A DNA stretch of 64,000 bases from assembly GCF_001590905.1 (NCBI RefSeq), contig NZ_BCTT01000005.1, positions 62,001 to 126,000 on the forward strand, given 5' to 3'. Below, one piece after another: positions 43,645-48,666 of the stretch (the first letter of the stretch is position 1; every line of letters begins with the position of its first letter). The position numbers and the translations under genes are program-made. The notes below the pieces were generated by a model. The model did not search any database and was not told the DNA's origin. It saw nothing but the letters and a program-made list of their open reading frames with translations. The stretch comes from Serratia grimesii NBRC 13537 (GTDB lineage: Bacteria > Pseudomonadota > Gammaproteobacteria > Enterobacterales > Enterobacteriaceae).

Positions 43645-44724
43645 ATGCGCGTCGCCGATTTTTCGTTTGAACTTCCCGAGTCCCTGATTGCCCACTATCC
43701 CCAACCAGAGCGCAGCGGTTGCCGTTTGCTGCAGTTGGACGGGCCGAGTGGGGAGCTTAAGCATGGCGTCTTCACCGATCTGCTGGATAACCTGGAAGCC
43801 GGCGATCTGTTGGTGTTCAACAATACCCGAGTGATCCCTGCGCGTATGTTTGGCCGTAAGGTCAGCGGCGGCAAGATTGAAGTCCTGGTGGAACGGGTAT
43901 TGGACGATCATCGGGTGTTGGCGCATGTGCGTGCTTCTAAAGCCCCTAAGCCGGGCACCGACCTGCTGCTGGGGGACGACGAAAGTATCGCGGCCACGAT
44001 GGTTGCGCGCCACGATACCTTGTTCGAACTGCGCTTCAATGACGAGCGGGATGTATTCACTATCCTTAATGCTGCCGGTCATATGCCACTGCCGCCGTAT
44101 ATCGATCGCCCGGACGAAGATGCCGACCGTGAGCTTTACCAGACGGTTTACAGCGAAAAACCGGGCGCAGTAGCGGCCCCGACAGCCGGACTTCACTTTG
44201 ACGAGCCGCTATTGGCTGCGCTGCGCGAGAAAGGCATTGAGATGGCGTTTGTCACCCTGCACGTGGGTGCGGGCACCTTCCAGCCAGTGCGGGTGGAAAC
44301 CATTGAAGAACACGTCATGCATGCCGAATATGCAGAAGTGCCGCAGGAGGTGGTTGACGCCGTATTAGCCTGCAAAGCGCGCGGTAAGCGTGTGGTGGCA
44401 GTCGGCACTACCTCGGTGCGTTCGCTGGAAAGCGCCGCTAACGCCAGCAAAGAGGCGTTAATTGCCCCGTTCTTCGACGACACCAGCATCTTTATCTTCC
44501 CGGGTTACCACTATCAGGTGGTTGACGCGCTGGTGACCAATTTCCATCTGCCGGAATCGACGCTGATTATGTTGGTTTCCGCTTTTGCCGGTTATAAAAA
44601 CACCATGCATGCCTATCAGCAGGCAGTGGCCGAGCAGTACCGTTTCTTCAGCTATGGCGATGCGATGTTCATCAGCCGTAATCCGCAGGCGGAACAAGAG
44701 TCCGTCGGCGCAGATCCCCAGTAG
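43645..44724 (+). CDS. queA: tRNA preQ1(34) S-adenosylmethionine ribosyltransferase-isomerase
   Basis: A 359-aa enzyme that adds the ribosyl part of SAM to preQ1 in tRNA to make epoxyqueuosine. Typical segments are [50 protein letters not shown] and [14 protein letters not shown], and the length fits the family (about 350). In E. coli queA is followed almost directly by tgt in one operon. Here an ERIC-like repeat begins one base after the stop and a 2.8-kb AT-rich insert with a tailspike-like gene separates them. Confidence 0.97.
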
Positions 44725-44725
44725 A

Positions 44726-44836
44726 GTTCAAGACGTAGGGGGAGGTAAACGAACGAGGCCCTAGGCGCTTACTTAAGTAAACGTCTAGGGTGAGAACACG
44801 AAGTCAATATATCCGCAGCTTGAAGTATGACTATTA
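44726..44836. repeat. Diverged ERIC-like element after queA
   Basis: GAGGCCCTAGGCGCTTACTT, AAGTAAACGTCTAGGGTGAG and then CGCAGCTTGAAGTATGAC follow the order of the ERIC core and right arm, with many substitutions. It marks the left border of the AT-rich insert between queA and tgt. Confidence 0.6.
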
Positions 44837-44847
44837 TAATTATATTG

Positions 44848-44873
44848 AGTGATTTCCGTAGGTGGAAATCACT
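44848..44873 (+). terminator. Hairpin downstream of queA
   Basis: AGTGATTTCC and GGAAATCACT pair perfectly over 10 bp with a 6-base loop, followed by GCTTTCTGC and then ATTTTT. It could end queA transcription; the T tract is imperfect. Confidence 0.5.
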
Positions 44874-45525
44874 GCTTTCTGCATTTTTACTCTATATTCC
44901 TCTGGTACTATAATGCTCTCTGATATTATATACTTGGATGTTTTTTATATTCCAACGGGTTGTGTGTGTGCGTTTTAATAACATCGTGGCGTTTGGTTTA
45001 AATTAATTTCACTATTTTTTATTGTTTGTTTATATTTTTTAAAATTATCAATGCAAATAATTTGTATTAATTTTGATGTCAGTGGTTATTTTGTGATTTT
45101 CAATTACATGATTTTTGTTGTGTGGTGAATGCCACAAGATAAATCAATTACTATATATATTCACTGGTATTATAATCTTATTGGTCACTATGATTATGAA
45201 ACATTGTTAAATGCAGATGTTATAAAGTGTTGTTGTACCAACACCACTTAAAGGGATGTTTTTGAATATCGATAATGGATTGCATTAGCATGGGTGATGT
45301 TTTTATTTAGTTTAAAGATGACTTTTTTGATGGGAATAGAGTGATAACGGTTCGTATGTCACAGTGTCTAATCCGTTTATCAAAAAAATAATGACTATGT
45401 CATCTGCTGTAGAGGTGTCATTGTACAGTTACTGTTAGATAGCGCTTCATCGTTATTTAATGCTGAGATAAACGGGTTTTTACTTCATTAATCTATTTTT
45501 TAGATATAAATAAGGGTATTAATTT
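44874..45525. other. AT-rich gene-free region upstream of the tailspike-like gene
   Basis: About 650 bases, visibly very AT-rich compared with all flanking sequence. I see no reading frame with start, ribosome-binding site and protein-like composition, and no tRNA or transposase remnant. Multiple TATAAT-like strings make promoter choice impossible by eye. Such sequence is a typical target for H-NS silencing (inference). Confidence 0.5.
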
Positions 45526-47274
45526 ATGAGCAATAGCGAGGGTTTAAATTTAATCAGTCGATGCAAGGATATTGCAACACTTAGAACAATAAATCCAACG
45601 GAGAACTTACAGCTTATTGATGTTGCTGAATACACTATTGGAGGGAAAGTTGGGGGTGGTTATTTCGTTTATGATATTACAGACACCAATAGTATAGATG
45701 ATGGTGGTAGCGTGATTGTGGCTACCGGAGGTGCTCGTTGGAAGAGACGTACTGAGCAACTATTACCAGTTCATTTCGGTGCTGTGCCAGGAAATAGTGT
45801 TGATGCAACCGAGGCTTTGCGCCGCTATATATCTGCGTCAGAAAACCGAACTGTAGATTTCCGAGGAAGTTATTGGACGATATCAGGGACGCTTGATTTG
45901 ATGAAGGTTTCTGGGGTTATTGCTGATAATTCCTGCATATTCAAAGTAAATCCTAAGGAGTTTAACGGTGAGTGGGTAATAACAATTGGAGATCCAACAT
46001 TAAAATATAATCAAGGCCGTGCTAATCGTGTTGTAATTATTGGTAGTTTAATCGTCGATTCTACAAGTCGCGATGTTCCATTAAATGGAGTGTATTTAAA
46101 GGGGCAGTGGTTTAATATAGGGCATATTCGTGTTAATAATTTTAATGGTATTGGTATAAAACAGGAGGCTGTATGGGATTCAACAATTGATAGAATGTCT
46201 ATTGAACTATGTGGCAACTCAACTTCATTTGCATATTCTCAAGAGGGTGGAGGCGATACTCATAACACGACACATATAAAATCATTGCAAGTAGAACAGT
46301 CATATAATAAAGCAATTAAAATGACCGGTGCTAGAGATGTTATAAATAATGTCCATTGTGAAAGGACATATATTACAACGCTAGATGATGGTTCAAAAAC
46401 TACGTCAGGGCTTACATACATAACATGCTATTTTGGTCTTGGTAATTCAATAATAAACCAAGGGATCATTGATGCATATGCAGGACTGAAGGCACCAGAT
46501 GGAACCCCTTGTTTGACTGCAAGTACATCCATAGTCTTGGCAATGGATTTCTCTACAATGAATAATATTTCAGCGGCCGAGTCTGTTGTTTCTTGTGGCT
46601 TTGGACGCCAATCAGAATATAATGGTTTTACTGTCAAGGATATTTATATAGCAGAGCCGGCTGAAAAAATAACGTTACGTTCACCGAGAATTACTGGAAC
46701 TGTTTATTTGGGTTCGGAAGTTATTGTAGAGAATGGGGTTATAAACAAGTTAACACCAAGAAATAATGCGTATAATATTATTGTAAGTGGTGGTTCGATA
46801 GTTACGCTAGATTACACACAAAACATTAGAGGGATGATAACATTTAATAATGTGACAATTTCAGAAGATATCTTGGATTTACGAGCTCCGGCAGGCTCTG
46901 GTTCTGGAACCTCTATCGGTGCACTGTACTCTCCAACTATATTTAATAATTGCAACCTAAATAAAGTGATTGGTTATTTCGGCTCAAGGGCTATTTTCAA
47001 TGGTGGTCGTATTGCAACTGTTGCATTGGCATCTCAGTCTGCTTTTGAATTTTATAATGTTAAGGTTAATACTTTCGGCTACTCAGGTAACCGAGCATTT
47101 ATAACTCGAGGTGTGCAAGCTGATACGGTGATAGCTTGGTCGGCACCAACTCACTATATTTGGCCTGTCGGTACGATAACTGAGCGTGTGGGGGGGGCTG
47201 CAAGTGGAGTAGGAATTATATATGTAAACCGTGGCAGTTTGGCTCAAGATTGGATGGCAATAGTATCAGTTTAA
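45526..47274 (+). CDS. Phage tailspike-like beta-helix protein
   Basis: A 582-aa protein without signal peptide or membrane segment. Residues about 15-75, including LIDVAEYTIGGKVGGGYFVY and a GARWKR close, match the N-terminal module common in phage tailspikes (AEY/GLGGGYF ... DDGG ... RW). From about 85 on, short repeating strands (VRVNNFNGIGI, NIIVSGGSIVTLDY, TIFNNCNLNKVIG) look like a right-handed beta-helix, as in polysaccharide depolymerases. The C terminus, ending IVSV, resembles tail-fibre tips. No structural phage genes surround it. Codon use is AT-biased unlike queA and tgt, pointing to transfer. A capsule/O-antigen-degrading activity is possible; a catalytic residue cannot be picked. 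Start ATG 45526 follows TAAGGG. Confidence 0.7.
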   Translation: MSNSEGLNLISRCKDIATLRTINPTENLQLIDVAEYTIGGKVGGGYFVYDITDTNSIDDGGSVIVATGGARWKRRTEQLLPVHFGAVPGNSVDATEALRRYISASENRTVDFRGSYWTISGTLDLMKVSGVIADNSCIFKVNPKEFNGEWVITIGDPTLKYNQGRANRVVIIGSLIVDSTSRDVPLNGVYLKGQWFNIGHIRVNNFNGIGIKQEAVWDSTIDRMSIELCGNSTSFAYSQEGGGDTHNTTHIKSLQVEQSYNKAIKMTGARDVINNVHCERTYITTLDDGSKTTSGLTYITCYFGLGNSIINQGIIDAYAGLKAPDGTPCLTASTSIVLAMDFSTMNNISAAESVVSCGFGRQSEYNGFTVKDIYIAEPAEKITLRSPRITGTVYLGSEVIVENGVINKLTPRNNAYNIIVSGGSIVTLDYTQNIRGMITFNNVTISEDILDLRAPAGSGSGTSIGALYSPTIFNNCNLNKVIGYFGSRAIFNGGRIATVALASQSAFEFYNVKVNTFGYSGNRAFITRGVQADTVIAWSAPTHYIWPVGTITERVGGAASGVGIIYVNRGSLAQDWMAIVSV

Positions 47275-47461
47275 TTAGTAGGTAAATGTGTACGTAGATA
47301 TTTCTCTTTGCATCTAGAGAGAATGTAAATGTGTGAAGAATTTCTTCAAATTATCACGAAGTAGCATAATTAGTTGGTGATAGGTTGGACTAGAACTAGG
47401 CCAGAAAATTAACATAAATCCACAAAGACTGGCCGGTATACGTATATGGGTACTGGTTGGC

Positions 47462-48666
<1,205 letters not shown>

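Follow-up and report, generated by a model that had tools for sequence, protein, structure and literature searches.

Background

Host-encoded tailspike-like enzymes are already known. The one with a solved structure that was met in this analysis is WceF from Pantoea stewartii (PDB 6tgf), an exported enzyme which has a neck domain at residues 166-229, a Tat signal and a P22-type head domain and is encoded in the stewartan gene cluster (PMC7949094). A phage-derived, detachable tailspike that degrades biofilm is described for the gene transfer agent of Rhodobacter under the name TspA (PMC13420450). A literature search, with subscription papers largely outside its scope, gave no account of such lone genes in Serratia or between queA and tgt, nor one of lone tailspikes that lack both a virion anchor and a signal and occupy numerous core positions within a single genus. 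Here we analyzed such a gene in Serratia grimesii NBRC 13537, within a stretch of 64,000 nucleotides (contig NZ_BCTT01000005.1, positions 62,001 to 126,000) that is referred to as the window.

A single gene inserted between queA and tgt

The features of the locus are as follows (window coordinates).

43645..44724, + strand: queA (NCBIfam TIGR00113; comparison with 23 empty sites)
44722..44840, no strand: left junction, a degenerate intergenic repeat of ~115 bp (69-74% identity, E 4e-6 to 5e-4)
44841..45525, no strand: AT-rich stretch, 29% GC, without an ORF of at least 60 aa
45512..45516, + strand: putative RBS-like AAGGG 5' of the ATG
45526..47274, + strand: the whole lone tailspike gene, without a virion anchor or visible signal peptide
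45532..45765, + strand: neck module, residues 3-80, as in CBA120 tailspike 2 (TSP2) and WceF
45766..47271, + strand: predicted enzymatic body, residues 81-582, beta-helix
47452..47510, no strand: arm common to the attR of two prophages (genomes G028 and G005) and to Brenneria pre-tgt DNA, holding a promoter-like TAGAAT
47511..47532, no strand: tgt leader, corresponding to the 23-bp core present at both ends of the G005 prophage, single copy at this locus
47542..48666, + strand: tgt (NCBIfam TIGR00430)

The ORF at 45526-47274 (+) starts with ATG, encodes 582 aa without an internal stop, and lies 0.8 kb 3' of queA and 0.27 kb 5' of tgt. The original prediction described a 2.8-kb AT-rich insert carrying one 582-aa gene, in agreement with the 2,817 bp that separate the stop codon of queA from the GTG of tgt and with a GC content of 39% in the gene (GC3 27%) and 29% in the stretch upstream, against ~55% in the flanks. 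When compared with the 23 empty sites, the final codons of queA diverged from those of siblings at the point where the insert starts, and the degenerate repeat at this left junction has four more weak copies elsewhere in the genome. Promoter-like matches in 44841..45525 were no commoner than in shuffles, the Rfam search of the insert gave no RNA match, and a tRNA search of the whole window was negative. By hydropathy and sequence reading, no hydrophobic signal-like stretch was seen at the N-terminus of the protein, which upholds the predicted lack of a signal peptide at that level of analysis.

The neighboring genes named by NCBIfam were queA and tgt followed by yajC, secD, and secF; further neighbors were peroxiredoxin C and an AcpH-type protein that scores below the cutoff of the AcpH model. 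As had been claimed from the sequence, none of these seven named neighbors was an integrase, capsid, tail, lysis, or any other phage gene, so that the gene is without the phage structural neighborhood of phage tailspikes, and an active prophage at queA-tgt of the window is ruled out (0 of 7 phage genes). No invertase or recombinase was present among the named neighbors, and at its queA-tgt location the gene is not inside a polysaccharide cluster. The 0.8 kb upstream of the gene showed no convincing BLAST trace of anchor-coding or other prophage DNA, the best matches to the loci used in the comparison of the right ends having E values of 0.018 (blastn) and 0.026 (tblastx) and those to the prophage record IMGVR_UViG_2772190600_000003 being short and at chance level. 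An assembly or foreign-contig artifact is made less likely, at the level of the assembly, by the position of the locus, which is flanked by host genes on either side and lies well within a contig of 384 kb.

The protein is a tailspike by sequence and a beta-helix by modeling

Searches with PHROG profiles matched the protein to an EPS depolymerase family at 1e-23 and to 13 more tail or unknown phage families below 1e-7, the tail-fiber and EPS depolymerase matches being confined to the N-terminal part, up to residue 283. Three PDB sequences, all of tailspikes, matched below 1e-6, and two of these were CBA120 TSP2 (2e-9). Tblastn retrieved 255 phage records, 21 of which span at least 80% of the query; the best 18 were Klebsiella phages, with 33-37% identity from residue ~80 to the C-terminal end. 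Pfam and NCBIfam assigned no family to the 582-aa protein, and scans with peptide patterns taken from this protein alone were negative for relatives, both among genomes and among viral contigs.

The AlphaFold model, made from five sequences, exhibited a beta-helix body with a mean pLDDT of 76, while the neck was poorly modeled, with a pLDDT below 50 for nearly all of residues 1-77. Foldseek placed CBA120 TSP2 at the top (E 3e-5, TM-score ~0.33) and WceF at rank 35 (E 4e-3), and the TM-scores were low, 0.22-0.39 of the query, for matches below 1e-3. Among the best 50 entries of VIA-align, TSP2 (Z 24.5, rmsd 3.8, 338 residues) and the Sf6 tailspike (Z 24.5, rmsd 2.5, 327 residues) were tied by the alginate epimerase 5lw3 (Z 24.4, rmsd 2.7, 307 residues). 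Since non-tailspike beta-helices tie and the TM-scores are low, the fold alone is not tailspike specific; the modeled fold is a beta-helix, and the tailspike identity comes from the sequence. The original prediction of a tailspike N-terminal module followed by a beta-helix, for which a structure comparison was proposed, thus holds in the sequence matches and in a model whose top Foldseek match is TSP2, except that the module is the neck rather than the virion-binding head.

The acidic residues D93, D124, D134, D218, E227, D244, E257, E279, and D316 were invariant in both body alignments and may include the catalytic residues. Cleavage of a polysaccharide by the protein is a prediction from homology.

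The window neck profile matched WceF residues 166-263, spanning the WceF neck domain, and the sequence-level match between the two proteins was limited to the neck. The window gene resembles wceF in being a host gene for a tailspike-like neck and a beta-helix. It differs in encoding neither a P22-type head domain nor, as judged by sequence reading and hydropathy, a Tat or Sec export signal, and in its location outside an exopolysaccharide cluster such as that for stewartan. It is likewise unlike TspA, a component of gene transfer agent particles that is equipped with an N-terminal domain of its own (PMC13420450).

The virion anchor is missing relative to the closest tailspikes

The closest relative found by profile search was a prophage tailspike, with 59% identity over residues 1-581. 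This 793-aa protein (L129, in IMGVR_UViG_2772190600_000003) has the same neck and body as the window protein but carries an extra 211-residue N-terminus with the T7 tail-fiber N-terminal domain (PF03906), which the window protein lacks. The L129 gene also adjoins a terminase gene and, by reading, lysis genes, whereas the window gene does not. An in-frame stop in the window leaves at most 8 residues possible ahead of the neck, and in six more phage records ~98 to 682 residues precede the neck match, as counted from the annotated start and the match position. From the extra residues of L129, the at most 8 residues of the window protein, and the longer fronts in phages, the window gene is, at the level of the sequence, a tailspike gene without the usual virion anchor that starts at a domain boundary. 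Short-fronted phage versions do exist, namely, phrog_23042, with the neck from profile position 27, and the tailspike of Klebsiella phage Emom, with the body behind a short N-terminus; a short N-terminus alone therefore does not exclude virion use.

The body was 33-37% identical end to end in the tailspikes of five Klebsiella phages from three families (vB_Ko_K74PH129C2, vB_KpnP_2146-HW, Emom, vB_KpnS_2146-302, and K751). These tailspikes share the body with the window protein and differ in their N-termini and in being encoded in phage genomes. We take the names of these phages to denote capsule types (K26/K74-like glycan). The contig with the L129 prophage begins with a Wzy_C gene followed, by reading, by a gene for a 559-aa protein with the Tat-like start SRRNFLR, the body of which was 31-32% identical to the window protein over ~485 residues. 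The same enzymatic body is thus shared by tailspikes of lytic phages, by the tailspike of a prophage, by the product of a host gene of exopolysaccharide type, and by the product of the lone gene in the window.

On that contig, the Wzy_C gene and the Tat-like enzyme (L135, 1-2960) lie near a prophage whose tailspike has the same body, and host and prophage may cut one polymer. A search of the 30 genus genomes for the Wzy of this related locus, run without a positive control, was negative.

queA-tgt is a prophage attachment site in two sibling species

The tgt gene was found in all 30 genus genomes, and queA-tgt was empty in 23 of them, with a gap of 75-83 bp, which rules out a long-standing host gene at this site. 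In genome G020 queA sits elsewhere, and in three small genomes it was not within 1.5 kb of tgt, the distance to which the search was restricted. It had been suggested that the same gene be sought at queA-tgt of other Serratia genomes; none of the other 29 genus genomes has an ortholog there.

Two sibling species (G028 and G005, the latter a sequence match to S. bockelmannii) carry a prophage in queA-tgt. In both, the integrase gene is next to queA and a tape measure gene follows at a greater distance, so that integrase-bearing prophages use the site in 2 of 30 genus genomes. On the tgt side, the penultimate gene of the G005 prophage matched a PHROG tail fiber, while that of the G028 prophage matched a PHROG without an assigned function. 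The tgt leader forms a direct repeat at the two ends of each prophage, with a length of 23 bp in G005 and an exact 18 bp in G028. At the window locus this attachment core is present as a single copy rather than at both ends; no attachment repeat was found at the left end of the insert, where a degenerate genomic repeat is seen instead.

The final 90 bp before tgt in the window matched the right end of each of the two prophages at 81%, a part of this match being the tgt leader that is common to all genomes. Beyond the leader, the arm was present in 7 of 7 non-empty sites, five being within one mismatch of its 14-base start and two diverged (by eye), and none of the 23 empty gaps, all read to their full length, contained it. 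When the genome collection was scanned for the exact pattern, the only carriers of the arm other than S. bockelmannii were two Brenneria species, one of which (Brenneria izbisi) has no gene-sized insert; the pattern was absent from viral contigs and from 393 other genomes of the order. Over ~60 bp, the window arm was 87% identical to that of Brenneria and 68% identical to the prophage arms. With an arm closer to Brenneria and no left repeat, descent from the G028/G005 prophage type is unproven. We read the window insert as a probable insertion at a prophage site, of prophage or similar origin, and the origin is likely a prophage end of which all but the tailspike body has been lost. As to origin, then, the prophage remnant offered among the original interpretations fits both the prophages at the site in two sibling species and the prophage tailspike as closest relative.

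The arm, with its promoter-like TAGAAT, precedes the leader in all seven tgt genes that do not adjoin queA (window 47452-47510, L061, L062, L063, L058-L060, L120, and L121), and it is possibly an element-borne promoter that would keep tgt-yajC-secDF expressed. In Brenneria salicis (L120, ~0.5-1.2 kb in reverse-complement coordinates), a small RelE-like toxin-antitoxin-like pair lies between queA and tgt, by reading.

Lone tailspikes recur across the genus

A neck profile built from 12 rows matched 48 times among the 30 genus genomes; the matches were spread over 22 genomes, and the window's own genome had five. The gene was called a lone one from the sequence, and it is alone at queA-tgt but is one of five neck-module genes in its genome. 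The reading of the window gene as a unique, stand-alone curiosity is ruled out by the 48 neck modules in the genus. Elsewhere in the order, a match was present in 12 of 392 genomes outside the genus (14 of 394 when the window genome and one sibling are included), in a search that scored at most 12 candidates per genome and is hence less sensitive than the genus search.

All matches but two weak ones, in G022 near 16.9 kb and in G011 near 3.95 Mb, were read in context (46 of 48), and nearly all of these were anchorless and without phage neighbors. The maximal extension ahead of the neck was at most 50 residues in 39 of the 46; the other seven comprised four with signal-like starts (L076, L077, L169, and L181) and three in which a start codon lies closer to the neck. 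Nine sites including queA-tgt accounted for 40 of the 46 matches, with 39 at the eight other shared sites:

cmoB-cutC, 9
LysR-gene neighborhood, 9 (five beside a flippase gene)
yciI neighborhood, 7
acnA-cysB, 4
copA-nfeD, 3
ycjX-pspC, 3
asmA-dcuC, 2
SSADH, 2
queA-tgt, the window gene

No phage family was present among the HMM-named flanking genes, which were named for one representative per site, the other loci being assigned by reading translations. By reading, the lone genes at cmoB-cutC, acnA-cysB, ycjX-pspC, and yciI start at or near the neck, are mostly signal-less, and have no phage neighbors; the window gene, which starts at the neck and has no phage neighbors, belongs with them. The lone genes at the other genus sites differ from it in body and site, and several are common to more than one species. 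The window body had no match above 26% identity among the other genus genes, in alignments of at least 250 residues (L177 left out), so that the window gene looks like an independent recruit. Ten proteins were compared with PHROG profiles, one of them without a match; in the lone or signal-bearing genes with a near end-to-end match, the match begins at profile position 96-141, indicating that the phage front is the missing part. The original prediction saw the lone tailspike but overlooked both the missing virion anchor and this recurrence across the genus.

There were exceptions. A transposase gene adjoins L068, L177 has a broken frame, and L072 looks shortened, while L075, L076, and L077 are in polysaccharide-type neighborhoods (L076 by reading only). 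L073 469-2424 encodes a P22-type tailspike with a Head_binding domain near a contig end. This tailspike gene is ~1 kb from a lone anchorless tailspike gene at cmoB-cutC, and the interval between the two holds, by reading, a fragment resembling CutC. At asmA-dcuC, in the window genome and one sibling, a lone tailspike has the Tat-like start NRRNLVK or NRRDLVK (L169 and L181).

Sister genes at several sites are under purifying selection

The dN/dS ratio (Nei-Gojobori) was 0.072-0.174 in all 24 measurable pairs of lone orthologs, which came from cmoB-cutC, yciI, ycjX, SSADH, and copA-nfeD, the queA-tgt gene having no ortholog. There were 44 ortholog pairs, of which 20 had saturated dS and gave no ratio. 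Since dS exceeded 1 in 6 of the 24, only 18 pairs, from three sites, were well within range, and 15 of these were drawn from six cmoB-cutC genes; the measured pairs are not independent of one another. Lone orthologs at the measured sites are kept by purifying selection. The window gene and its L129 prophage relative differed at 0.33, 0.25, and 0.63 of first, second, and third codon positions, with no indel in 582 codons; as far as such a comparison reaches, this pattern shows constraint over their joint history, the phage part included. The suggestion of a depolymerase retained for a host use gains indirect support from the genus-wide lone genes, several of them under purifying selection, but not from the window gene itself, which has no ortholog at its site.

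Interpretation

The explanation that we regard as the more probable is that the neck and beta-helix part of a prophage tailspike was left at the attachment site and now encodes a soluble, lysis-released depolymerase belonging to a recurrent lone class. The remainder of the prophage element would have been lost while the tailspike part stayed. As the gene starts exactly ahead of the neck, the product lacks the virion anchor, and the intact frame would yield a soluble polysaccharide depolymerase, trimeric by homology. Its substrate would be a glycan of capsule or exopolysaccharide type, related to the polymers degraded by the Klebsiella phages with the same body. Having neither an anchor for the usual virion seating nor a signal for Sec/Tat exit, the enzyme would act upon cell lysis, that is, after leaving the cell, most likely through the lysis of some siblings. 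TspA shows, by analogy, that a tailspike of phage origin is able to degrade biofilm once it has been set free (PMC13420450). Our reading is of a free polysaccharide depolymerase of a kind recruited repeatedly, the continued usefulness of the window copy being presumed. Points counted against this explanation were the lack of an ortholog at the site, a body at most 26% identical in the genus, the Brenneria-like arm, the lack of a left repeat, the epimerase tie, the low TM-scores, the short-fronted phage versions, the lack of an above-chance promoter, the failure to find the related Wzy (in the search without a positive control), and the poorly modeled neck.

A broader form of this explanation is possible but held tentatively, namely, that Serratia-type bacteria have a type of free tailspike, a phage depolymerase that arose by repeated anchor loss at the same boundary and is placed singly at many core sites, under purifying selection, mostly without a visible export signal and with release by lysis, the queA-tgt gene being an independent recruit. 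A few lysed cells would then spread enzymes that cut the coats of rivals or siblings or strip the phage receptors of neighbors. It is from retention by selection that we infer such a lysis-released public enzyme.

It is rather unlikely that the gene is a plain prophage remnant, i.e., the last gene of an element integrated before tgt, drifting and functionless. The use of queA-tgt as an attachment site in two siblings, the attR-like arm with the left repeat gone, the singleton status at this site, and a GC content strongly unlike that of the host would all be expected of a remnant. However, the 582 codons are intact, the start is exactly at the domain boundary with an RBS-like site, all shared acidic residues are retained, and a like truncation is seen in dozens of lone genes with purifying selection where measurable. 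Still less likely is a host enzyme of the WceF type that trims the cell's own exopolysaccharide: the neck is the same as in WceF, which is also a Foldseek match (rank 35, E 4e-3), the Tat-like relative with the same body adjoins a Wzy_C gene, and the window genome has its own Tat-like lone tailspike at asmA-dcuC, but the window protein has no visible signal peptide, its gene is outside a polysaccharide cluster, and the genus search for the related Wzy (no positive control) was negative. A receptor-binding spare part, either an anchorless cassette for phage recombination or a protein docking to virions in trans via a short peptide, is very improbable, for while phages carry the same body on varied N-termini, Emom has a short-N-terminus version of it, and a Klebsiella plasmid gene starting at the neck adjoins a recombinase, no invertase or recombinase is among the window neighbors, no docking peptide was recognized in the first residues, and the dN/dS of the sister genes is unexpected for a passive reservoir.

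A genus that has acquired anchorless, apparently unexported tailspikes at many core sites, at a dN/dS of ~0.1 where measurable, would make phage receptor-binding enzymes a standing source of bacterial genes, raising the question of how a cytoplasmic depolymerase pays its way. The lone genes would also amount to a natural library of pre-trimmed depolymerases.

Plasmid-borne relatives

Matches were found in 15 plasmid records. The Klebsiella plasmid pKPTCM2-4 carries a tailspike-like gene that starts at the neck and has a recombinase gene adjoining (L198, 3025-5001), and this gene may be a switchable cassette. Three Pantoea megaplasmids that were read carry lone versions (L195, L196, and L197), in which tailspike-like genes of ~617-619 aa lie directly 3' of an autotransporter gene.
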